This document shows, in pieces, positions 17,557 through 31,228 of a stretch of DNA of 64,000 nucleotides. Below the pieces are notes generated by a model, which did no database searches, was not told the DNA's origin, and saw only the letters and a program-made list of their open reading frames with translations. How positions within the stretch are numbered: position 1 is the first letter of the stretch; the number at the start of each line of letters is the position of its first letter. A program made the translations under genes and the position numbers. The stretch is from Candidatus Hydrothermarchaeum profundi. GTDB lineage: Archaea > Hydrothermarchaeota > Hydrothermarchaeia > Hydrothermarchaeales > Hydrothermarchaeaceae. The stretch is from assembly GCA_002011125.2 (NCBI GenBank), contig MTMF02000009.1:712989-776988 (forward strand), given 5' to 3'.

Positions 17557-17579
17557 TGATTTATTTGAGGTGATTGTAT

Positions 17580-17819
17580 ATGAAAGAAAAAGATTTGATT
17601 ATAATCCTTGGAGTTCTTTTTTTTATCCCAGGATTTTTGCATGCAGGTATGATGGGGTTTGGACTGCCGATATGGATAATAGTATTAGCAGTCGTTTATT
17701 TTGTCTTAAAAGAAAAGTCCGATGACAGCAGCCTGGAAGAACTGAAAAAAAGGTATGCGAGAGGGGAAATAACTAGAGAAGAATATATTAGGAAAAAAGA
17801 GGAGATAACAAAGCCATGA
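17580..17819 (+). CDS. SHOCT-domain small membrane protein 1
   Basis: 79 residues from ATG 17580, which has a GAGGTGA site 6 nt upstream; TTG 17574 is less likely. Two hydrophobic segments flank HAGMMGFG, and the C-terminus is a SHOCT motif (LEELKKRYARGEITREEYIRKK). SHOCT is a short C-terminal domain often attached to membrane segments. Its stop overlaps the next start. Two close paralogues follow. Confidence 0.8.
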   Translation: MKEKDLIIILGVLFFIPGFLHAGMMGFGLPIWIIVLAVVYFVLKEKSDDSSLEELKKRYARGEITREEYIRKKEEITKP

Positions 17820-18166
17820 GAAATTATTGGGCTTACATAATCTTTGGGTTTCTAGCAGTAATACTAGTGTTGACTTATGGATATGAAAGCGGATACCGGG
17901 CAGCTCCATATAGGTATTGGGGAGGCATGATGCATCATAGCGGCGTTGGCATGATGCATGGGCCTATGATGGGAGGCTATGGTTTTGGAGGTTTTGGACT
18001 ACTTTTCTGGATATTGGTAGTTGTTTTTGTAGTGTTAATACTAAAATGGGGTAAGTCGGAGGAAAGAATAAAGGAGACCCCGATAGATATTCTTAATAAG
18101 AGATTTGCGCGTGGAGAAATAACTAAGGAAGAGTACCTTCGAATTAAAGAGGATATTCTAAAGTGA
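17816..18166 (+). CDS. SHOCT-domain membrane protein 2, Met/His-rich
   Basis: A 116-residue protein: signal-anchor helix, an exported Met/His-rich loop (GGMMHHSGVGMMHGPMMGG), a second membrane helix (LLFWILVVVFVVLILKW) and a C-terminal SHOCT motif (LNKRFARGEITKEEYLRIKED). The MMHH and MMH clusters are plausible soft-metal (copper) ligands. It overlaps the preceding gene by 4 nt. Confidence 0.8.
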   Translation: MRNYWAYIIFGFLAVILVLTYGYESGYRAAPYRYWGGMMHHSGVGMMHGPMMGGYGFGGFGLLFWILVVVFVVLILKWGKSEERIKETPIDILNKRFARGEITKEEYLRIKEDILK

Positions 18167-18224
18167 TAGCATCGCATAAACCTTTTTTTATTTGTTAAAA
18201 AAATAGATAGTGAGGTGAAGAATA

Positions 18225-18494
18225 ATGATTGAATCACAGATGATGGATTGGGGATATGGGGGAGGATATGGGATGATGGGTTATGGCTGGGCTATCTTCA
18301 GCTGGATATTTTTTATCGTCTTCTGGGTGGCGATAATTCTGCTTATTATCTGGCTTTATAAGCAAATAAAGGGCTCAGATACCAGACATACAAGCCCTGC
18401 TGAAACTCCTCTAGAAATTTTGAAAAAGAGATATGCCAGAGGAGAAATAACTCGGGAGCAATATGAGGAAATGAGGAAAGAGATTGAAAAATGA
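18225..18494 (+). CDS. SHOCT-domain membrane protein 3
   Basis: An 89-residue protein: a short Met/Gly/Tyr-rich N-terminus (MMDWGYGGGYGMMGYGW), one long membrane helix (residues about 25-46) and a SHOCT motif (LEILKKRYARGEITREQYEEMRKE). A GAGGTGAAG site precedes the ATG. It overlaps the cytochrome c gene by 4 nt, tying the SHOCT set to a haem protein. Confidence 0.8.
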   Translation: MIESQMMDWGYGGGYGMMGYGWAIFSWIFFIVFWVAIILLIIWLYKQIKGSDTRHTSPAETPLEILKKRYARGEITREQYEEMRKEIEK

Positions 18495-18985: not shown

Positions 18986-19196
18986 TATGAATATAGTTTA
19001 TTTCATTTGTAATATTCTTTTTCTTTTGAGAAGTTGAGTCTGTACTCTATGGAGATTACTAGGCAATTTGTAAAAAAGAATGCTACCATCTTCTCAGAAC
19101 TCTCTATAGGGGTTGCTCCCGACTTTTTTCAGTAAAACACTCTATTACATTATGCACTAAAAATTTTCATATACTATTTTATTTGCATAGGTTTCT

Positions 19197-20297
19197 ATGG
19201 AATTCGATGCAATAATAGTTGGCGGTAGTTTCGCAGGTTTGACTACAGCTTATTATACGAGGGCTGAAAATCTATTAGTATTAGAGAAAGAGAAGGGTCT
19301 AGGAATCAAGCAGAAGTCTACATGTTGCGCTCCGGTAGACTGGGTAAGTAAGCTAGGAGCTAGGAAAAGTATTCTCAGTAAATTTGATAAAATCGTATTC
19401 CACTCTCCTAAAGAAAGGGCTGAAATCGATCTGCCTATTTACTACTGCACTATCGACTACAAGGTGTTTTGCGAGTCTCTCGCCTCTCAATTAAGAAATA
19501 CTACGATAATGACCAATACAAAAGTAACTGGAGTTAAAGAAAATGGAGTTAAAAAGGTTGTATGCAGTGAAAAGGAGTTTTCCTCTGATATCCTTGTTGA
19601 TGCTAGCGGATGGAGAGCGGTGCTAGCAACAAGTCTCTCTCAGGGGTTGCATGATGTAAAATTCAATATTAGGGGTATAGAGTCCGAGGTGGAATATGAT
19701 ACTGACTATATACACATGTTTTTTGGTAGGCGATTTATCCCGGGAGGCTACGCTTGGATTTTCCCAACTAAAGATGGTCTTTCTAGAGTTGGGCTGGGTA
19801 GCTTTAGAAGGCTGAATCTTTTAGAATTTCAGAGGGGTTTCCTAGAGTTTTTAGGAATCAAGGCGAAAGATTTGCGATATCATGGCGGTATAATCCCCTG
19901 CCTTGGCCTGAGGGACCCAGTAGTGGATAATATTTTCGTCGTTGGTGATGCAGCTGGTCAAGTCCTTCCGGTATCAGGTGAGGGGATCAGAAAAGCTTTT
20001 ATCTATAGCAAGTTATGTGGTGATCTTATATCTAAAGTTTTGTTGGATGATATAAGTCTTAGTGAGGCTTTAAGAGTATATGAGAGAGAAGTTCTACAAG
20101 GAAAGAAATTTTATGATGCCCTCCTTTTCCTTCAAAATATAGTATTTCGTGCACCAGATTGGGCGTTAAACAGGGTGATAAGAAAAGCCGCTAGGGATAG
20201 GTCGATACCGAGAGAGCTTCTAAAAGTATACTACTCGGAAAGTCATGAGTATACCAAGACTAAAATCTTGCAGCAACTTTTGAAAATCTTGCTTTAA
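19197..20297 (+). CDS. Geranylgeranyl reductase family FAD-dependent oxidoreductase
   Basis: A 366-residue flavoprotein. The N-terminus has the dinucleotide motif IIVGGSFAGLTTAYYT; DILVDASGWRAVLA and the FAD-binding DNIFVVGDAAGQVLPVSGEGIRKA are typical of the geranylgeranyl reductase family, which saturates isoprenoid chains of archaeal lipids or quinones. The pattern KSTCCAPVDWV matches the Cys-containing loop of the family. It heads a three-gene set with two methyltransferases, suggesting lipid or quinone tailoring; the substrate is not shown by sequence. Confidence 0.82.
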   Translation: MEFDAIIVGGSFAGLTTAYYTRAENLLVLEKEKGLGIKQKSTCCAPVDWVSKLGARKSILSKFDKIVFHSPKERAEIDLPIYYCTIDYKVFCESLASQLRNTTIMTNTKVTGVKENGVKKVVCSEKEFSSDILVDASGWRAVLATSLSQGLHDVKFNIRGIESEVEYDTDYIHMFFGRRFIPGGYAWIFPTKDGLSRVGLGSFRRLNLLEFQRGFLEFLGIKAKDLRYHGGIIPCLGLRDPVVDNIFVVGDAAGQVLPVSGEGIRKAFIYSKLCGDLISKVLLDDISLSEALRVYEREVLQGKKFYDALLFLQNIVFRAPDWALNRVIRKAARDRSIPRELLKVYYSESHEYTKTKILQQLLKILL

Positions 20298-20342: not shown

Positions 20343-21146
20343 ATGAATATAACTAAAATAGGTAGAAGATTGTTGAATTTAACCTTATATTTATTTATAT
20401 TACTTCTTTTATTGAATGTGCTATCTTTTAGCCTCTTAATGCCATTTCCAAAAATTATTCCGCAATCTTCTAACGATCTCTATGCATATGGCAATTGGGC
20501 CGCAGTTGGAATAAGCCTTTTGATTTTTTCTCTTTTTGTTTTAAGCTATATTTCTCCTTTAGAAAAAAAGCATTGGAAGGCATTAGGAATATACGAGGCC
20601 TTTTTGGTTGCACTCTTCACAGAAATGTACGGGTTTCCTCTAACTATATTTCTCCTCTCATCATTCTTAGGACTAGACCTTTCATTTGACCACGTAGGCG
20701 GGCATCTATCCGCAGTATTATTGTCAAAGCTAGGGGTCATGCAAATAAATACTGCGTGGGCTTTAGTCATGGTGTTAAGCAACTTACTCATTGTTGTAGG
20801 CCTAATTTTGATTATCAAAGGATGGAAGAAAATCTATAGATCAAATGGGCTACTTGTAAAAGACGGTGTGTATAGATATATGCGTCATCCACAGTATACG
20901 GGTATCCTCTTAATAACTGTAGGATTTATTGTCCAATGGCCAACTATTATTACAATCATTATGTGGCCTATTCTACTGGTATCTTACTATAGGTTGGCTA
21001 AAAAAGAAGAAAAAACATTGATAAAAGAGTTTCAGGATGAATACTTACAATATGTCAGCGAAACCCCTATGTTCTTACCAAAATTAAATGTATTTGGCTT
21101 CATAAGCGTAGTTATGAACAAACTAAAGAAGCTGAATTCTAGGTGA
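20343..21146 (+). CDS. Isoprenylcysteine/phospholipid methyltransferase-like membrane protein
   Basis: About 267 residues from ATG 20343, preferred over TTG 20331 because GAGG lies 6 nt upstream. It has five or six membrane helices and, near the C-terminus, the ICMT/PEMT signature: DGVYRYMRHPQYTGILL, then YYRLAKKEEKTLIKEFQDEYLQY. These enzymes use S-adenosylmethionine to methylate membrane-bound acceptors. The next methyltransferase gene follows at once, so a membrane-lipid or quinone pathway is likely. Confidence 0.8.
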   Translation: MNITKIGRRLLNLTLYLFILLLLLNVLSFSLLMPFPKIIPQSSNDLYAYGNWAAVGISLLIFSLFVLSYISPLEKKHWKALGIYEAFLVALFTEMYGFPLTIFLLSSFLGLDLSFDHVGGHLSAVLLSKLGVMQINTAWALVMVLSNLLIVVGLILIIKGWKKIYRSNGLLVKDGVYRYMRHPQYTGILLITVGFIVQWPTIITIIMWPILLVSYYRLAKKEEKTLIKEFQDEYLQYVSETPMFLPKLNVFGFISVVMNKLKKLNSR

Positions 21147-21166
21147 CAATCCAGGAGGTCATATTG

Positions 21167-21793
21167 TTGAGTGGAAAAGAATTTGTTGAAAGAAAGTATG
21201 ATAGTATATCCCGTTTTTATGACTTTTTCGAATTACCGATGGAGCTACTTTTCTTTAAAAGATGGAGGCGCCTTGCGATTTCAAGGTTAAAAAGTGGTAG
21301 AGTTCTTGAAGTTGGCGTTGGAACGGGAAAAAATCTACCTTATTATGATAGTTCTTTTGAAATATATGGGATAGATATAAGCGAAAAAATGCTATTAAAA
21401 GCCAAAAAAAGAGCTAAAAGATTAAATATATCTCTAAAAATTTATAAAATGGATGTTCAGAATCTCGAATTCCCAGATAATTACTTTGACGGTGAATTTT
21501 CTACGTTTGTATTTTGCTCTGTGCCCGATCCTATTGCTGGCCTTTCTGAATTGATGAGAGTTTTGAAAAAGGATGGAATAGCAGTATTTTTAGAGCATGT
21601 TAGGCCAAAGGGTTTATTAGGTCTTATATTTGATTTTTTTAATCCTATTAGTGTGAGGCTAATAGGAGTTAATATAAATAGAAATACGGTGGAGAATATC
21701 AAAGAAGCGGGCTTTGAAATACTAGAGGAGAATGATCTCTTATTTGATGTTTTCAAATTAATAGTTGCTAAACCATTAGGCAAAGAAGTTTAA
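21167..21793 (+). CDS. Class I SAM-dependent methyltransferase (UbiE/MenG-like)
   Basis: About 208 residues. TTG 21167 is preferred because AGGAGGT lies 9 nt upstream; GTG 21143 would overlap the previous gene by 4 nt and is an alternative. The SAM site is RVLEVGVGTGKNLPYY with the acidic loop IYGIDISEKML, then FVFCSVPDPIAGLSELMRVLKKDG, the usual order for this fold. The family includes quinone and phospholipid methyltransferases. It is the third gene of the reductase-methyltransferase set. Confidence 0.8.
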   Translation: MSGKEFVERKYDSISRFYDFFELPMELLFFKRWRRLAISRLKSGRVLEVGVGTGKNLPYYDSSFEIYGIDISEKMLLKAKKRAKRLNISLKIYKMDVQNLEFPDNYFDGEFSTFVFCSVPDPIAGLSELMRVLKKDGIAVFLEHVRPKGLLGLIFDFFNPISVRLIGVNINRNTVENIKEAGFEILEENDLLFDVFKLIVAKPLGKEV

Positions 21794-22091: not shown

Positions 22092-22160
22092 TTACATACA
22101 ACTCTTGTGACATTTACATGTTGAATATTTATCTTTTTTTTCAAGCTTTTTGATTTTCAT
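22092..22160 (-). CDS. Microprotein A: 22-residue CxCHxxC peptide
   Basis: A 22-codon gene missed by length cut-offs. It begins MKIKKLEKKDK, a charged N-terminus, and ends YSTCKCHKSCM. The ATG (22158-22160) has a GAGGTG ribosome site 6 nt upstream, an 18-nt promoter-like element shared with its paralogue at 25528-25596, and a downstream T-run. The last ten codons encode the same residues in both copies despite six synonymous changes, direct evidence that the peptide is under selection. Three Cys, one His and a terminal Met would suit binding of copper, zinc or haem; it could also be a precursor peptide. It lies downstream of ccmF. Confidence 0.75.
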   Translation of the reverse strand: MKIKKLEKKDKYSTCKCHKSCM

Positions 22161-22197
22161 CTATAACACCTCACCTTATGACTATAAGTCTAGTTTT

Positions 22198-22215
22198 ATA
22201 TAGTTTTTTACTGCA
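22198..22215 (-). promoter_or_regulatory. Conserved promoter-like element of microprotein A
   Basis: The 18 nt ATATAGTTTTTTACTGCA (plus-strand reading) are identical at 25636-25653, at nearly the same distance (37 and 39 nt) from the two microprotein start codons. On the minus strand it reads TGCAGTAAAAAACTATAT, a TATA-like sequence about 40-55 nt before the ATG, which fits an archaeal promoter with a short leader. Confidence 0.55.
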
Positions 22216-22337
22216 GAAATACTATATATTCTAATATAAATTTTTAATAAAGCATACACATATATGAATTATTTATCAAAGTGAAGAAAATTAAATTCTG
22301 AATCCTCAATCCTCAAGCCTTCTCAAAGAATCTGGCA

Positions 22338-24776
22338 TTATTTCTCTTTAATATACTTGGTATCAGATAAAATTGTCATAATTATGCCAAGGATGAAAAA
22401 TATTATGCCTAACCAGATTTCATTTATAAGAGGTTTCAACTTCACAGTTATAGGAATCTCACCTTCTCCATATACTCCATCGAATATAACGAAAACGTCC
22501 CTCAATAAGCTTCTATCTATTAGAGGTCTTCTAGCAATTCCATTTTTATAAGTTTCAACTTTTGCTACACCTCCTCCAATTCTGTTATAACCTTTGTAAA
22601 CATCTATTTTTATTTGTTGGATGGTCTTATATGGACTACCCTTAAGATTTTGTTGAAACTCTTCAAATCGGGGCGACAAAACTATTATATCAAAAGTTTT
22701 ATTCAGAGTCTGACTTGTAAAATTTAGCAGCAATGTGGCATCATAAACTACTAACTCAATCCCCCTCGGGACGTTGGCTTTATTGACAGCGACCCATAAA
22801 GTCTTGTTATCTCCTACAAGCTTGATATAGGTGTTATGTTCCAATTGTATTACTTCCTCAACTATGCCTCGAATAGTATAGGAATCTCTATAACTGCCTT
22901 GGGCAATTTCATTATATAACTCAGAAACGCTTATCCCTGGAGGAGAATAATACTCTATTTTCTCTTCACTTCCATAATCTACGATTTCTTTATAGTCTAA
23001 TAGCATAATAGAGTAGGGGCTCCATCCTTCTCCGGAATGCACGCCCCAGGTTCCAAGCCTACCAAATCCTTCATGTACTTTTGCGGGTTCAATGCTTATA
23101 AGTTGGCCCTTATTATTGAGGCTTAAAGTAGCTGAAAAGTTGGAAGTAAAGAGACTGGAAAACACGATTCCAAGGCTAATTAACACTACCCCTAAATGAA
23201 TAGAAATTATTCCCAACTCTTTAATCTTGTATTTTTTCCTACTACCTTCTGAAATTCTCAATCTCCATCTTTCTATTGCAGCAAAAAAAATATAAATTGA
23301 GGGAGGTATTATGCTAAGTGCAGAGGTAGATCCTATAACTCGATATAATAAGGGTTTTGAAGAACTTACTATTGCTGTGTAATCAATTATGTTGAAATTT
23401 TCATTGGGTTTTATTATACCGGCTATTAGTGTAAAAACTGAGAACCCTATGAAAGCTAACATTGCTCGCCTCCTGATTGATTCATGGTAATGTAATCCTA
23501 GGCCTACGAGAAGGAGCATTATTATGAAGAATGGAAAAATCCAAAGATTGAAGAACTGGACGGTGACAGCGTATTTCTTCGTAGTAAGTGATTTAATTAT
23601 TGGGGGGTAAGTTATACCAAAAAAAGAGATAAAAGTAATTATTAAAATGACTAATATTGCTGCATAAAAGATGTTAGTCCTATTCAATATGCGATTTTCC
23701 TCTTTTTCTATTTTTTCTGTTTTCAAATATTTTATTATTCCTAACACCAGAGGAAGAATAAAAGATCCTACAGCCAATATTATGATGAACTTCCCAACGT
23801 TTCCTGAAATGAAAGAGTGTACAGATTCAAAAATACCACTTCTAGTAACCATAGTCGCATATACTACAAAAGAAAATGAAAACGATACAAGCACCGGTGC
23901 TAGAATATTATATCTCTCCTTATTTCTTCTTAGTTCTACTACTGTATGTATTGCCCCGGTCAGCATCAGCCACGGGAGGAGCATAGCTGTCTCAACCGGG
24001 TCCCATGCCCAGAATCCTCCCCATCCCAAGGTCTTATAAGCCCAGATACCTCCAAATGCCATAGAGAGGGTCGAGAAAAGCCAAGAAACCCTTAGCCACT
24101 GGATACCTTTTTCTATCCATATCCTATGCGCGACTTCTTCGTTCTTCCCCCTAAAGGTAAGGTATAGGTAGACCAAAGCGCCGGCAAACGGTACAGTAGT
24201 ACCTGCATACCCAAGAAAGGTGGTCAAAGGGTGAGTAGCCATCCATGGGTCAAGCAATAAGGGGTTTAGACCATTACCGTCTTCAGGGATAAAATCCTTA
24301 GGTAATTCGAGGTAGAGTTGATGAATAGTCTTGAAGGGAGAATCAAGTAATGTTAGAAAACTAAAATACAATGCAAGAAAAATAACTATTATCTGCGTTT
24401 TCTTGACAAAATCCGATGTACTATCCTTAGTTTCATTAAGCCAAAGGCTACCAATACCTATAAGAGCTGCCCAGAAAAGGAGAGTGCCCTGTTGACCCGC
24501 TAAAGCTCCTGAGAGTCGATAGTATAGTGGATAATACTTACTAGAAAATGCCCATACGTAGTTTAAGCTAAAATCACTAACTGCGAAGTAATATGAAAGC
24601 AATATAAAGTCTAAGAAAAGCACTGTGGAGAATCCTCTAATAAGCCATTTTACATAATTGCTAAATTTTAAAAGGAAATTCAGTTGCTCGCATATTAAAC
24701 CCGCAAGTGCTACTACAGCTAGAATAACACTTATATAGAGTAGTAAGTCGCCTATCGGAGTTGTGAGGTTAAGCAT
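22338..24776 (-). CDS. ccmF: Cytochrome c maturation haem lyase subunit CcmF
   Basis: An 812-residue polytopic membrane protein with about 15 helices. The WWD haem-binding motif is visible as WGGFWAWDPVE near residues 250-260, with SGALAGQQGTLLFWAALIG before it and conserved His in helices around it. A large exported domain precedes the last helix. CcmF attaches haem to CxxCH apocytochromes on the outer face of the membrane. Two anchored thioredoxins lie upstream on the same strand and would keep the Cys pairs reduced. No ccmA, B, C, E or H gene was recognised nearby. It serves the many CxxCH proteins of this window. Confidence 0.92.
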   Translation of the reverse strand: MLNLTTPIGDLLLYISVILAVVALAGLICEQLNFLLKFSNYVKWLIRGFSTVLFLDFILLSYYFAVSDFSLNYVWAFSSKYYPLYYRLSGALAGQQGTLLFWAALIGIGSLWLNETKDSTSDFVKKTQIIVIFLALYFSFLTLLDSPFKTIHQLYLELPKDFIPEDGNGLNPLLLDPWMATHPLTTFLGYAGTTVPFAGALVYLYLTFRGKNEEVAHRIWIEKGIQWLRVSWLFSTLSMAFGGIWAYKTLGWGGFWAWDPVETAMLLPWLMLTGAIHTVVELRRNKERYNILAPVLVSFSFSFVVYATMVTRSGIFESVHSFISGNVGKFIIILAVGSFILPLVLGIIKYLKTEKIEKEENRILNRTNIFYAAILVILIITFISFFGITYPPIIKSLTTKKYAVTVQFFNLWIFPFFIIMLLLVGLGLHYHESIRRRAMLAFIGFSVFTLIAGIIKPNENFNIIDYTAIVSSSKPLLYRVIGSTSALSIIPPSIYIFFAAIERWRLRISEGSRKKYKIKELGIISIHLGVVLISLGIVFSSLFTSNFSATLSLNNKGQLISIEPAKVHEGFGRLGTWGVHSGEGWSPYSIMLLDYKEIVDYGSEEKIEYYSPPGISVSELYNEIAQGSYRDSYTIRGIVEEVIQLEHNTYIKLVGDNKTLWVAVNKANVPRGIELVVYDATLLLNFTSQTLNKTFDIIVLSPRFEEFQQNLKGSPYKTIQQIKIDVYKGYNRIGGGVAKVETYKNGIARRPLIDRSLLRDVFVIFDGVYGEGEIPITVKLKPLINEIWLGIIFFILGIIMTILSDTKYIKEK

Positions 24777-24794
24777 TCTGCCCTCCCCTATAAG

Positions 24795-25265
24795 TTATTG
24801 TATGTTGTCATAGTAGAAATCCCGCACTTCTTTAATTATACTATAAAACTTCTCCTTCGGCACGTAACCAGGGACCTTCGTTATAACTTCTCCTTCGGGC
24901 GTCAGAAAAAGCTCATAAGGAGGTGCTTGTACATTGAATCTACGGGTGTCTTGCTTATTAACGTCCATATCTACGGCTATGAGTACAAAGTCCTTCTCTA
25001 ATATCTCAAAAGTAGGCTCATAAGGAAACACTTCAACTTGCATTTTCTCGCAATAGGTACACCAGATGGTCCAAAAATAAACAAAGATGGGTTTATTAAG
25101 TTCTCGGGCCACTTTAGCTCCTTCATCGTATGAGTTATACCATCGGAGTCCACTTAGGTATGTGTATTTCTCGTCGCTCACCATTGGAGTCGCATTAACT
25201 GCGTAATATACATAGACACCGATCACAACTAGTGCGGCAATAGTGAGTAGTTTTTTAGTTTTCAC
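24795..25265 (-). CDS. Membrane-anchored thioredoxin-like protein (CTYC)
   Basis: A 156-residue protein with an N-terminal signal anchor and an exported thioredoxin domain. FVYFWTIWCTYCEKMQVEVF holds the CTYC redox site; the loop QAPPYELFLTPEGE provides the cis-Pro. The family reduces apocytochrome Cys before haem attachment (DsbD/CcmG-like role). It ends 18 nt upstream of ccmF and shares the pattern SGLRWYNSYDEGAKVA with the second thioredoxin (SGLPFYTSYDKAVKIA), so the two are paralogues. Confidence 0.85.
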   Translation of the reverse strand: MKTKKLLTIAALVVIGVYVYYAVNATPMVSDEKYTYLSGLRWYNSYDEGAKVARELNKPIFVYFWTIWCTYCEKMQVEVFPYEPTFEILEKDFVLIAVDMDVNKQDTRRFNVQAPPYELFLTPEGEVITKVPGYVPKEKFYSIIKEVRDFYYDNIQ

Positions 25266-25281
25266 AGCTGATCTAGCCTCG

Positions 25282-25470
25282 TTATTCTGTTTTCTTTTTC
25301 ATTGCGAAGTGGTTGCCGTGGGAATGTTTCCCCATTAATTTAAGATCTCCAACTAGACCAAAGATGAATCCTAAGCCCGGGGCGATATAGGTATACGGAC
25401 CTCCCAAGTATTGACCGATTACCAGTCCGCCAAAAAATCCTACACAGCACATCATGTCAAGATCCCTCAC
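25282..25470 (-). CDS. Small membrane protein with CC motif and His-rich tail
   Basis: Up to 62 residues (GTG 25470; ATG 25455 gives 57). A Cys pair (MMCCVGFFGG) begins the first of two hydrophobic segments, and the tail is KHSHGNHFAMKK. It lies 16 nt upstream of the first thioredoxin gene and 57 nt after microprotein B. The CC and His residues suggest metal or haem handling in cytochrome assembly; no family was recognised. Confidence 0.6.
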   Translation of the reverse strand: MRDLDMMCCVGFFGGLVIGQYLGGPYTYIAPGLGFIFGLVGDLKLMGKHSHGNHFAMKKKTE

Positions 25471-25527
25471 TAGACGTTATAATGGGCTTTTGCACTTTTG
25501 TCGATCCTTTTATCTTATAGAGGCCTG

Positions 25528-25596
25528 TTACATACAACTTTTATGGCATTTGCAGGTCGAATACCTGTTTTCTTTCTCAACTTTTTTGATTTTCAT
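25528..25596 (-). CDS. Microprotein B: 22-residue CxCHxxC peptide, paralogue of A
   Basis: A 22-codon gene with ATG at 25594-25596, a GGGTGATT ribosome site just upstream and stop at 25528-25530. It begins MKIKKVEKENR and ends YSTCKCHKSCM, the same last eleven residues as microprotein A. Both are exactly 69 nt long and share the upstream 18-nt element. It lies between the two thioredoxin genes on the same strand as ccmF. The motif is CxCH, not the haem motif CxxCH. The function is unknown; metal or haem binding, or a modified peptide, are possible. Confidence 0.75.
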   Translation of the reverse strand: MKIKKVEKENRYSTCKCHKSCM

Positions 25597-25635: not shown

Positions 25636-25653
25636 ATATAGTTTTTTACTGCA
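25636..25653 (-). promoter_or_regulatory. Conserved promoter-like element of microprotein B
   Basis: Exact copy of the 18-nt element at 22198-22215, lying 39 nt before the microprotein B start codon. The flanks differ, so the element itself appears to be kept. Confidence 0.55.
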
Positions 25654-25752
25654 AAAAATAAGTATTTATTTATATTAATCTTACAAAATGCAAAGATCAA
25701 TTTTTTTTTAATTATACTTAAGAAAGTCTTTACTATTGAGGATTAGAGGCTA

Positions 25753-26250
25753 TCAGGTAATAGAAGTTAGGGTTTTTAAAAAATCTTTCGCATCGATAAA
25801 GCCTACAATCTTTTTGATGATTTTTCCTTCCGGATCAACGAACACTAAGGTGGGGGTTCCTCGAACACCGAATTTTATTATTATTGGGATGTTCTCTCTA
25901 TCATTCACATCAATAGATGCTAGTATGAAATTCTCTTCTAGAGCAGATTTTACTTTTTTGTCTGATAGTACATCTGAGTCGAATTTCATACACCATACAC
26001 AGGACTCTGATCTGAAGTAGACTAGCGTTGGTTTTCTGGACTCGCCGGCTATCTTAACTGCTTTGTCATAAGATGTATAAAATGGTAGTCCGGAGATTAG
26101 GATGATTTCTTCATTCGGATCTGAAATATTCCCTAGAGAGCCTATTTCAGTTATTTTCTCGGTATCACCTCTGATTCCATAGATTCCCCAAAAAATAGCA
26201 AAGGATGCTAGTAACACTACAGCTATAATGAGAATTTTCTGTATCTCCAC
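25753..26250 (-). CDS. Membrane-anchored thioredoxin-like protein (CVWC)
   Basis: A 165-residue protein: N-terminal anchor helix, a short linker and an exported thioredoxin domain with redox site ESCVWCMKFDSDV and cis-Pro in VRGTPTLVFVDPEG. It is a paralogue of the CTYC protein nearer ccmF and likely reduces Cys pairs of apocytochromes or keeps the exported Cys peptides reduced. First gene of the minus-strand cytochrome maturation group. Confidence 0.85.
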   Translation of the reverse strand: MEIQKILIIAVVLLASFAIFWGIYGIRGDTEKITEIGSLGNISDPNEEIILISGLPFYTSYDKAVKIAGESRKPTLVYFRSESCVWCMKFDSDVLSDKKVKSALEENFILASIDVNDRENIPIIIKFGVRGTPTLVFVDPEGKIIKKIVGFIDAKDFLKTLTSIT

Positions 26251-26544: not shown

Positions 26545-27054
26545 ATGAAAAAAAATTTAATATTCGCCGTGGTTTCCGCAATGGCTACGGGATTAATTCT
26601 CATGTTTTTTATTCTATATCTTACAAATACTCCGAGTGAAGCTATAAGCGAGGCAGATGTTACAAAGACGGTCAATGGTAATCAAGAAAAGACAGATGAG
26701 TACTACACTAGAGTAAGTCCTGGAAATATTGAAGTAACCGCTATTTTTTTAAATCCAAATTATGGTGATAAATTCGAGAGTTCTATAGCCTTTTATATTC
26801 GGTTAGATACCCACTCGGGGGATCTCTTCTCATATGATATAGAGGAATTAACTGAGTTGATTGATAATGACGGCAGGAGATATAAGCCAATAAAATGGTC
26901 AGAATCAGAGAATTCATGGGGGCATCATAGATCTGGACTATTGGAATTTGAAAGATTCGATAAAAGCGGGAGGGATCTTCTAAGTCAAGAGCGTTTGAAA
27001 CTTGTAATTAAGGGGATAGAGAGAGACATAGAGTTTGTGTGGGACGTGGAGTGA
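26545..27054 (+). CDS. Exported hypothetical protein with beta-rich domain (LDTHSGD family)
   Basis: A 169-residue protein with an N-terminal signal anchor and an exported beta-sandwich-like domain containing FYIRLDTHSGDLFSYDIEELTEL and a SWGHHRSGLLEF segment. I recall similar proteins of unknown function near metal transport genes, but cannot check this. AAGGAGG precedes the ATG. The next gene starts just after its stop and encodes a membrane protein with a Cys/His motif, so the two may act together on a metal. Confidence 0.65.
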   Translation: MKKNLIFAVVSAMATGLILMFFILYLTNTPSEAISEADVTKTVNGNQEKTDEYYTRVSPGNIEVTAIFLNPNYGDKFESSIAFYIRLDTHSGDLFSYDIEELTELIDNDGRRYKPIKWSESENSWGHHRSGLLEFERFDKSGRDLLSQERLKLVIKGIERDIEFVWDVE

Positions 27055-27058
27055 TAAA

Positions 27059-27634
27059 GTGGATAGGAGGTACATCTACGCATTCTTAGGGAGTTTTTCT
27101 TTAACCATTCTCTACATTGGTATAACCTCCTTAGGTGGAGGAGTCGAGCTTTTTAAGGCAGAGTTTAGAGAGTTGTGGTATTTTTTGCTACCCCTCATAG
27201 GAGGTTTTGGGCTACAAATATGGTTGTTTAGCCATATCAGACTATATGGGAAAGGCGAAGGGAAAAAAGAGGTTGCTACAACAGGCTGTGTTTCGACAGG
27301 TTCTATGATTGCATGTTGTGCTCACCATGTCACAGATATATTGCCCTTTGTTGGTTTGACTGCAGCTGCGGTAGTTTTAGCCGACTATCAACGCCCCCTC
27401 CTTTTGATAGGGAACCTCTCTAATGTAATAGGAGCGATATGGATGCTAGATATAATTCAAAAGTTTCATCTATACAGCGAGGAAAGCAGGTTTAAGGCCC
27501 TTGAGAGAATTCATTTTGGAGCGTTAAAGTGGCATATTATACTTTCTGCCATAGCGATATTTATAGTATATCTTATAATTTATAATCCATCGAAAATAAA
27601 TGTGGAAGAAATGCTAAAATTAGCAAGTTCCTGA
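27059..27634 (+). CDS. Membrane protein with GCVSTGSMIACCAHHVTD motif
   Basis: About 191 residues from GTG 27059, five nt after the upstream stop; GTG 27035 would overlap that gene. Roughly five membrane helices. The central segment TGCVSTGSMIACCAHHVTDILPFVG holds three Cys and two His at a helix edge, which looks like a soft-metal site. Function unknown; probable operon with the exported protein upstream. Confidence 0.65.
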   Translation: MDRRYIYAFLGSFSLTILYIGITSLGGGVELFKAEFRELWYFLLPLIGGFGLQIWLFSHIRLYGKGEGKKEVATTGCVSTGSMIACCAHHVTDILPFVGLTAAAVVLADYQRPLLLIGNLSNVIGAIWMLDIIQKFHLYSEESRFKALERIHFGALKWHIILSAIAIFIVYLIIYNPSKINVEEMLKLASS

Positions 27635-28946: not shown

Positions 28947-28979
28947 TAATCTTAATTACTCAAGGTAGGAGGTGTGAGA

Positions 28980-30134
28980 GTGTCGGATACTCCCCTTTTG
29001 GATGAGGCTGAGAAAGGTCCATGGCCGAGTCTTGTCACAGAGATAAAGAAAACGGGATTTAAAGGCCTACTCAAAATATATGAGCTGGCTTATGAGGATA
29101 AAGTAACTCACTGGACTCATGGAGGGATGGTAGGCTACCCCGGATATGATGCGGGGGTAATAGGCAGGCTTAGCGATCGGCATGACATTCTTAGAGATTG
29201 CCATACTATACGGATGATACAGCCAGCGGCTTGGTTTTACAGCACAAAAAAGTTGAGAAAGCTTGTTGAGATCTGGAATAAGTACTCATACGGCTTGATG
29301 AACTTTCATGGAGCGACCGGAGATTTTCAATTAATCGGCATAGAAACAGATAAAATAGAGCCTTTCTTCGATGAAGTCTCGAAGGAGCACTGGGATATAG
29401 GGGGCTCTGCCGGTGACTTTAGGACTGCAAGCTGTTGTATAGGTCCCGCTAGGTGTGAGATGGCCCTGATAGATACTTTGGATATCTATCAGACGCTGAT
29501 GAGTGACGAAGAGATATTGAATGATATGCATAGACCAAGGTTTCCATACAAATTCAAAGTAAAGATAGCTGGTTGTCCAACTGATTGCATTGCTGGTGTA
29601 GCTAGGGCAGACCTATTGGTCGTAGGAACATGGAGGGATAATATTAAGATAAACCAGGAGGAGGTAAGGAAATACGCTGAGAAGGGAGTAGATATTGGTT
29701 TAATAGCTTCGAAATGTCCTGGAAATGCTATGCAGTGGGATGGAGAGGAGCTTAAGATTGATAATGATAACTGCATGCGTTGTATGTTCTGCCTTCAAAA
29801 AATGTCTAAGGCTCTTAGACCTGGAGATGATAGGGGTGCTACCCTGGTTATGGGTGGTAGGGCTAGGGGGAGATATGGAGCCTTTTTAGGATGGGTTTTA
29901 ATGCCCTTTATCAAACTCGAAAAGCCCTATGAAGAGCTTAAAGACCTCATATACAAGCTCATTGACTGGTGGGATGAGAATGGCAGAACAAAGGAGAGGA
30001 TCGGCGAGACTATATACAGGTTGGGAGCAGGTAAGTTCTTAAAAGAGACTGGTTTGAAGCCGCATCCAGCGATGGTTCAAGCTCCTAGGAATAATCCTTT
30101 CTGGTTCTATTGGCCTGGAGAAGTAGAAGAGTGA
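28980..30134 (+). CDS. dsrA: Dissimilatory sulfite reductase alpha subunit
   Basis: About 384 residues. GTG 28980 (MSDTPLLDEAE) has AGGAGGTG 5 nt upstream; GTG 28974 is an alternative. Sirohaem-[4Fe-4S] ligands are visible as CCIGPARC (Cys153, Cys159) and GCPTDC (Cys199, Cys203), and the inserted ferredoxin domain as SKCPGNAM with NCMRCMFCLQKM. It reduces sulfite to sulfide as an alpha2-beta2 complex with DsrB. It is shorter than many DsrA proteins (around 420). Only dsrB follows; dsrC, dsrD and dsrMK were not seen. Confidence 0.93.
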   Translation: MSDTPLLDEAEKGPWPSLVTEIKKTGFKGLLKIYELAYEDKVTHWTHGGMVGYPGYDAGVIGRLSDRHDILRDCHTIRMIQPAAWFYSTKKLRKLVEIWNKYSYGLMNFHGATGDFQLIGIETDKIEPFFDEVSKEHWDIGGSAGDFRTASCCIGPARCEMALIDTLDIYQTLMSDEEILNDMHRPRFPYKFKVKIAGCPTDCIAGVARADLLVVGTWRDNIKINQEEVRKYAEKGVDIGLIASKCPGNAMQWDGEELKIDNDNCMRCMFCLQKMSKALRPGDDRGATLVMGGRARGRYGAFLGWVLMPFIKLEKPYEELKDLIYKLIDWWDENGRTKERIGETIYRLGAGKFLKETGLKPHPAMVQAPRNNPFWFYWPGEVEE

Positions 30135-30145
30135 GGTGAGGAGAG

Positions 30146-31228
30146 ATGGCTTTAACTATGGATGAGCTTGACTTTGGACCGCCTGATTATAAGGAAATGC
30201 TACCGGAGACCCTTAAAAGGAACTATGGAAAGTGGATATACCACGAGCTAATAAAGCCGGGAGTATTTAAGCATGTTTCGAGTACTGGGGACGAGGTGTA
30301 CACGGTTAGGTCCGGGCAGCCTAAGTTTATAGCGTCTTCAACAGTTCTTAAGCTGTGTGACTTAGCTGACAAATACTGTGAGGGCTCTTTAAGGTTTACC
30401 AGCAAACATAGTATTGAGTGGATAGTACCGAAAAAAGATGATGTAGATAAGCTGATAGAAGAGTTAAAGAAACTCGGGTTACCGATAGGAGGAACAGGAA
30501 ACGCTATGCATAGTATTGTGCAGTGTACCGGCTGGGTGCACTGTCATACCCCTGCAACTGATGCTCCCGGAATCGCCAAGGCAGTTTATGATGAGTTAAT
30601 CTCTTACTTCCAGAGGGATGACTTGCCTGCTAGACTGAATATAGCTGTCTCTGGGTGTTTGAATATGTGTGGCGCTATTCACTGCTCGGATATAGCGGTT
30701 CTCGGCGTACATAGGCGTCCGCCAAAGGTGAATGATGAGGTAGTATCAAAAGCATGTGAGATTCCTACTATGATAGCTTCGTGTCCTACCTACGCTATCA
30801 AGCCCAATCCAAAGGCGAAAAGCATTAGGATTGATGCTAATAAATGCATGTATTGTGGAATCTGCTATAGTATTTGCCCGGGGGTACCTATTGCAGATGC
30901 GAAGAACGATGGAGTTTCTATTTGGGTAGGTGGGAAGGTATCTAATACTCGAAGTGGTCCAGCGTTTTCACGTTTAGCGGTTCCTTATCTGCCGAATAAT
31001 CCTCCTAGGTGGCCGGAGGTAGTGGAGGTAGTAAAGAAGATAGTGGAGACATGGGCGAGTGAAGCTAAGCCTCATGAGAGAATGGGCGAGTGGATTTCAA
31101 GGATAGGATGGCCTGCTTTCTTCGATAAGACGGGTCTAGAGTTTACGGATAAACACATTGATGACTATATCTTTTCTATTAGAGATATGAGAGTTGGTGC
31201 TAGGATAAGGGGACGTGAGATGAAGTGA
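30146..31228 (+). CDS. dsrB: Dissimilatory sulfite reductase beta subunit
   Basis: A 360-residue partner of DsrA. It has its own full sirohaem-cluster set, CTGWVHC (Cys127, Cys133) and GCLNMC (Cys171, Cys175), and a ferredoxin domain, SCPTYAIKP with KCMYCGICYSICPG. The ATG lies 11 nt after dsrA with GTGAGGAGAG before it. The normal length and intact ligands suggest a working enzyme. Whether it works in the reductive direction cannot be told from this alone. Confidence 0.93.
   Translation: MALTMDELDFGPPDYKEMLPETLKRNYGKWIYHELIKPGVFKHVSSTGDEVYTVRSGQPKFIASSTVLKLCDLADKYCEGSLRFTSKHSIEWIVPKKDDVDKLIEELKKLGLPIGGTGNAMHSIVQCTGWVHCHTPATDAPGIAKAVYDELISYFQRDDLPARLNIAVSGCLNMCGAIHCSDIAVLGVHRRPPKVNDEVVSKACEIPTMIASCPTYAIKPNPKAKSIRIDANKCMYCGICYSICPGVPIADAKNDGVSIWVGGKVSNTRSGPAFSRLAVPYLPNNPPRWPEVVEVVKKIVETWASEAKPHERMGEWISRIGWPAFFDKTGLEFTDKHIDDYIFSIRDMRVGARIRGREMK

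Follow-up and report, generated by a model that had tools for sequence, protein, structure and literature searches.

Very short peptide precursors are matured in the pathways of PQQ (PqqA/PqqD/PqqE) and mycofactocin (MftA/MftB/MftC), both of which combine such a precursor with a recognition element (RRE) for ribosomally synthesized and post-translationally modified peptides (RiPPs) and a radical S-adenosylmethionine (SAM)/SPASM enzyme, and both of which give an intracellular product. Bufferins, which are copper-chelating, improve growth under copper stress (PMC12452194), and a genome-mining survey describes archaeal clusters of the ranthipeptide and sactipeptide types as a class only, in a text that mentions neither Archaeoglobus nor Hydrothermarchaeota (PMC12144867). 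The present analysis concerns a stretch of 64,000 nucleotides from Candidatus Hydrothermarchaeum profundi (assembly GCA_002011125.2, contig MTMF02000009.1, positions 712,989 to 776,988), hereafter the window, which contains two minus-strand genes for 22-residue Cys-containing peptides close to a cytochrome c maturation gene. Comparative analysis indicates, with a probability of roughly 0.86, that these genes encode precursors of a radical-SAM RiPP family with the core CKCxxxC.

Gene 1 is located at 22092–22160 and gene 2 at 25528–25596, and their translations, MKIKKLEKKDKYSTCKCHKSCM and MKIKKVEKENRYSTCKCHKSCM, can be divided into a putative 11-residue leader (MKIKKLEKKDK and MKIKKVEKENR, respectively) and the presumed core YSTCKCHKSCM, an 11-residue tail that is identical in both. 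All four amino-acid changes between the two genes fall in the first 11 codons, and six of the last 11 codons differ, each of them silently. The pN/pS ratio across 20 homologues is 0.106 for the core and 0.40 for the leader; the window peptides are under purifying selection. Shine-Dalgarno-like sequences, GGTGAGGTG and GGGTGATT, precede genes 1 and 2, respectively. One copy is found between two membrane-anchored thioredoxin-like genes and the other directly beyond ccmF. In these respects the sequence-only reading from which the work started was accurate: it had placed both genes correctly to the base, counted six synonymous and no amino-acid changes in the tail, proposed selection on the peptide itself, and recognized the ribosome sites and the gene neighbours. 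Its CxCHxxC motif stands as far as the cysteines are concerned, but homologues often have Cys, Tyr, Gly, Ser, or Asn in place of the His, and CKCxxxC fits better. It also overlooked a third copy of the peptide gene, the enzyme adjoining that copy, and a common promoter element.

When the whole genome (G000) was searched for the tail pattern with up to three mismatches, exactly three matches were obtained, namely the two window copies and one at G000:C8:96423, and the reversed control gave none, a result far beyond chance. This third precursor, A (G000:C8 96423-96491, corresponding to L021 8424-8492), opens a compact operon of three genes. Protein B, of 46 residues and Cys-containing, begins right after the stop of A (96492-96632; L021 8493-8633), and its own stop overlaps the start of the 387-residue radical SAM/SPASM protein C (96632-97795; L021 8633-9796). 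The window copies are read as precursors because the third copy heads an operon with a radical SAM enzyme. The A-B-C order is present in eight genomes of the class, in which B occupies a same-strand gap of about 130-190 nucleotides between precursor and radical SAM gene and the outer neighbours vary. In one family, a radical SAM protein of ~580 residues is encoded directly upstream of A-B-C (L028, L030, L031, and L038), and a lipoate-protein ligase family gene adjoins it in three of these four loci.

Protein C shows an invariant CxxxCxxC motif (C101-x3-C105-x2-C108; Pfam PF04055, E 1.7e-23) and seven SPASM cysteines, C299, C315, C350, C353, C359, C363, and C381, that do not vary among 11 sequences taken from three phyla; both patterns are kept in relatives from other phyla that are 34–54% identical. 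The nearest PDB folds to its AlphaFold2 model (pLDDT 91.6) are SkfB (6efn), CteB (5why), and SuiB (5v1t), each of them an RRE-bearing RiPP maturase. Profile alignments begin within the N-terminal domain of protein C (at its residue 17 for CteB, 15 for TigE (8vpo), and 20 for SuiB), and the modelled N-terminus consists of strands and then helices; an RRE-like N-terminus is likely. Among the named NCBIfam radical-SAM models listed (AhbD, NirJ, MftC, SkfB, AlbA, PapB, the ACGX system, and others), all score far below their cut-offs, the best of the listed matches reaching 119 bits against a cut-off of 500. The fold search with protein B returned no PDB match, and neither B nor the peptides match a Pfam or NCBIfam family significantly.

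Homologues of the peptide were found in 13 of the 23 genomes of the class, by peptide search and by alignment profile alike, with hidden Markov model E-values down to 1e-9 to 1e-13; at the sensitivity of a single-peptide search, none of 38 genomes from elsewhere in the domain gave a match. Nearly all class homologues have 21-22 residues and stop one codon past the motif, following the consensus M[KR]I.K..KK..Y..CKC[HC]KSC plus one residue. A search for the tail pattern over 85,000 species, of the kind that the sequence-only reading had proposed for archaeal genomes, gave true-type matches, in which the stop comes one codon past the motif and the leader fits, confined to Hydrothermarchaeota-type archaea (Ca. 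Hydrothermarchaeota, Ca. Pyrohabitans, Archaeon BMS3Abin16, and similar). The remaining matches were rejected as chance, being in the wrong frame or without a leader. Two further phyla carry homologues. The Archaeoglobaceae carriers include the cultured iron reducers Ferroglobus placidus (G110) and Geoglobus ahangari (G217), whose precursors have 20 residues (e.g., MRVKKVEGRKRRICKCASTC). In a third phylum with genomes of 2-6 Mb, possibly the Asgard archaea, precursors bear one to three tandem CKCGGxC cores (e.g., MKIEKKEKITSAGCKCGGDCISTSCKCGGDCISISCKCGGDC), the number varying between sister genomes (one vs three). A single leader followed by tandem cores is characteristic of RiPP precursors. 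Most precursors have 19-22 residues and three or four Cys, the multi-core forms having nine, and near-universal conservation across all lineages is confined to the C, K, C, and final C of the core. By sequence similarity, the peptides form a widespread archaeal family spanning three phyla.

The distribution of the peptide matches that of the enzyme, which was searched for in archaeal genomes. The 23 class genomes comprise 11 with both, two with the peptide only, one with the enzyme only, and nine with neither (p=5.9e-4), and in the Archaeoglobaceae (the family of G285) the two sets are identical at 17 of 55 genomes (p=1.5e-14) if one marginal peptide match, E 0.04, is left aside; both p-values treat related genomes as independent and hence overstate the case. 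Beyond the class, one phylum has the enzyme in 24 of 394 genomes and a second has it in 21 of 228. The precursor reading rests on the maturase operon, the co-occurrence of peptide and enzyme, and the tandem cores, and the same evidence strongly supports the earlier suggestion of a precursor that is modified. The system appears decayed in one genus: the coding sequence of the G002 maturase (L051 1501-2664) contains an in-frame stop, TAA, and the operon there lacks a precursor. In a sister genome, G011, the operon core is degenerate (L038 9789-9857; YSCAQCHKGCM).

The two window copies share a 22-nucleotide promoter element, in which the near-palindrome TTTTTGCAGTAAAAA merges into a TATA box. 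It lies on the minus strand at 22198–22219 (TTTCTGCAGTAAAAAACTATAT, 37 nucleotides upstream of precursor 1) and at 25636–25657 (TTTTTGCAGTAAAAAACTATAT, 39 nucleotides upstream of precursor 2). A weaker copy with three mismatches is at 19124–19145 on the plus strand, 51 nucleotides upstream of the gene for a geranylgeranyl-reductase-like FAD oxidoreductase (19197–20297, plus strand), homologues of which are encoded 14-107 nucleotides downstream of a precursor in L034 and L039. A perfect palindrome is found 35 nucleotides upstream of a precursor in G008, a genome of another family (L024, 8040), and the third, operon-borne precursor lacks the element. Since the whole genome holds only these three sites at up to three mismatches, a large regulon was rejected; a small shared regulon of the precursors and the FAD reductase gene is suggested because the third site fronts a reductase whose homologues adjoin precursors elsewhere.

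The genes beside stand-alone precursors give hints about function. A P-type ATPase gene lies within about 3 kb of 6 of 21 such precursors, compared with 0.23 expected (p about 2e-7, again overstated by the relatedness of the genomes). MxxSS is a signature of Cu(I) pumps and CPH is the motif of CopB-type pumps; four of the six ATPases have the former and one the latter. A regulator with a TRASH domain is encoded beside one stand-alone precursor, together with a two-HMA pump, the stand-alone precursor of Ferroglobus has genes for DUF411 and rhodanese proteins close by, and Met-rich proteins also occur among the neighbours. Eight genomes, drawn from two phyla, have homologues of the two membrane-anchored thioredoxin-like proteins of the window (24795–25265 and 25753–26250, both on the minus strand) encoded close to their precursors. 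The thioredoxin link that the sequence-only reading had proposed to check thus holds, and its metal- or haem-handling peptide gains circumstantial support on the metal side from the Cu(I) ATPases, the TRASH regulator, DUF411, and the Met-rich neighbours, the haem side being weak. Judged from these neighbours, the chance that the product handles copper or thiols could be put a little below even, and copper/thiol homeostasis touching cytochrome c assembly would be the most economical reading.

In the mechanism that we propose, one dedicated radical SAM/SPASM enzyme would bind a basic leader of ~11 residues (M-K-I-x-K) through its RRE-like N-terminus, act on the CKCxxxC core, and most likely introduce thioether or similar cross-links at Cys or Lys. 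Each window copy would have a promoter of its own, controlled by the shared palindromic operator, and its peptide would be matured in trans by the enzyme encoded elsewhere in the same genome. The product would most likely bind Cu(I) or relay thiols alongside the membrane thioredoxin-like proteins, with a role in copper/thiol homeostasis that overlaps cytochrome c assembly. More tentatively, and with odds clearly on the lower side, the system may represent an ancient archaeal RiPP family, common to three phyla and perhaps to Asgard archaea, whose radical-SAM-modified CKCxxxC unit serves inside the cell as a Cu(I) or thiol cofactor, one maturase acting on several operator-switched precursors scattered among copper, redox, and cytochrome c genes; the product would then be a cofactor encoded by dispersed genes and not a natural product for secretion.

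Apart from the relatedness of the genomes mentioned above, several observations weigh against this picture. The peptide occurs without the enzyme in G006 (89% complete) and G017 (82% complete), and G018 has the enzyme, cut at a contig end, without the peptide. With the N-terminal domain of protein C alone, the top profile match is a PqqC/D-type RRE at a non-significant E of 0.34, and no Pfam RRE model matches this domain. The stand-alone copies in the window genome and in most class genomes are not near a Cu ATPase, and neither a leader peptidase nor an exporter recurs near the precursors. A gene for an M48 membrane peptidase, possibly a leader protease, starts 17 nucleotides after a stand-alone precursor in G008 (L024 6947-7897, minus strand), an arrangement seen once.

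It is rather unlikely, but still worth weighing, that the main role of the modified peptide is to assist cytochrome c maturation or thiol/sulfur redox reactions outside the cytoplasm, in concert with CcmF and the anchored thioredoxins, where it might, for instance, compensate for the absence of CcmH. CcmF or CcmE and thioredoxin-like genes adjoin precursors in G000, G008 (the maturase operon included), and G013, thioredoxin and rhodanese genes do so in Ferroglobus and G511, and a rhodanese gene does so in G590. Archaeal Ccm variants without canonical CcmH have also been reported (PMC4600277). The window peptides themselves have neither the LRCxxC motif of CcmH nor a membrane anchor, and the lack of a signal sequence counts against this reading. 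Cytochrome c assembly proteins are present in 22 of the 23 class genomes, including some without peptide and enzyme. A function in nothing but haem attachment is therefore unsupported, and haem attachment, which the sequence-only reading had proposed, is a weak suggestion that was rejected as the main role. The window genome has five CcmF/CcmC-type matches, of which only one is close to the peptides, and ccm genes are absent from the vicinity of most maturase operons and of many stand-alone copies in other genomes; of the two proposed proximities, to ccmF and to thioredoxins, the latter holds across two phyla. One system-bearing genome presumably comes from A. sulfaticallidus, a species reported to have a single monohaem cytochrome c.

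The RiPP precursor reading has also to be set against simpler ones. An unmodified peptide could be a small zinc- or copper-binding microprotein, with another substrate for the radical SAM enzyme, given that CKC(H/C)xxC is a plausible metal site alone and that many copies are away from the enzyme. This is improbable in view of the matching presence and absence in two phyla, the conserved A-B-C operon, the conserved basic leader, and the tandem cores. Subtilosin and sporulation killing factor, both known radical-SAM RiPPs, are antimicrobial, and the tandem cores of some lineages could likewise be taken to indicate a secreted signalling or antimicrobial product; however, no exporter, immunity gene, or protease recurs, metal and thiol neighbours do, and the core is near-invariant across phyla, unlike that of diversifying bacteriocins, all of which makes this role, if anything, slightly less probable still. 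That the very short and duplicated window genes are leader open reading frames (ORFs) or repeat relics without a product of their own is hardly credible because of the silent core changes, the low pN/pS, their own promoters and ribosome sites, their stand-alone positions, and the homologues in three phyla.

Other genes of the window recur near precursors as well. On the plus strand, a SAM-dependent methyltransferase (21143–21793) has a homologue adjoining precursors in L026, L029, and the Ferroglobus locus L201, a protein without a Pfam family (26545–27054) has one near the stand-alone precursor of L201, and a membrane protein with a CCAHH motif, also without a Pfam family (27035–27634), has homologues near precursors in L022 and L201. 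CcmF itself is encoded at 22338–24776 on the minus strand. Three successive short related SHOCT-type proteins are encoded at 17574-18494 (plus strand), the first of them confirmed by Pfam and two Met-rich, and G008, Ferroglobus, and G482 have homologues of them in the vicinity of precursors. A 57-codon ORF (MMCCVGFFGGLVIGQYLGGPYTYIAPGLGFIFGLVGDLKLMGKHSHGNHFAMKKKTE, 25282-25455, minus strand) separates the thioredoxin gene from precursor 2 and has no homologue in the loci taken from other genomes. Adjacent genes at 28974-31228 (plus strand) resemble, by eye, dissimilatory sulfite reductase subunits.

An archaeal radical-SAM RiPP of this type was not found described in the open-access literature, subscription papers and atlas supplements being outside the search, and no Pfam or NCBIfam model covers the peptides or protein B; this is in line with the earlier statement that no described family with the motif was known, and we provisionally regard the RiPP family as apparently undescribed. 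It would add a family with very short precursors from deep-branching archaea, and such a system is easily missed because 19-22 residues are below the usual gene-calling limits. If the core is cross-linked and binds copper or shuttles thiols, a copper/thiol RiPP would come from an enzyme class other than MNIO, with a possible bearing on archaeal cytochrome c assembly without canonical CcmH. The presence of the system in Ferroglobus placidus and Geoglobus ahangari opens it to direct mass spectrometry.

Compared to known systems, protein C resembles SkfB (6efn), CteB (5why), TigE (8vpo), and SuiB (5v1t) in fold and in the order of its domains, a likely RRE-like N-terminus, a radical SAM core, and a seven-Cys SPASM domain, and the operon shares with sactipeptide/ranthipeptide and streptide systems a short precursor gene beside the enzyme. 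It differs from these in being archaeal, in the 20-22-residue precursor with a CKCxxxC core, in the extra conserved Cys protein B, and in the several stand-alone precursors per genome. The SCIFF/CteB family is defined by a precursor with six Cys in forty-five residues, unlike the 19-22 residues and three or four Cys seen in most precursors here. Bufferins and the copper RiPPs of MNIO (DUF692) enzymes are similarly Cys-containing ribosomal peptides linked to copper handling; here, a radical SAM/SPASM enzyme takes the place of MNIO, the putative copper role comes from gene neighbourhood only, and no DUF692 protein is among the Pfam-scanned neighbours, a genome-wide DUF692 search not having been made. 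Protein C scores 94.7 with the mycofactocin model and 70 with the PqqE model, for which the cut-offs are 265 and 381, respectively, and in contrast to PQQ and mycofactocin, which are built on Glu/Tyr and Val/Tyr, the core of the archaeal peptides is Cys-rich.

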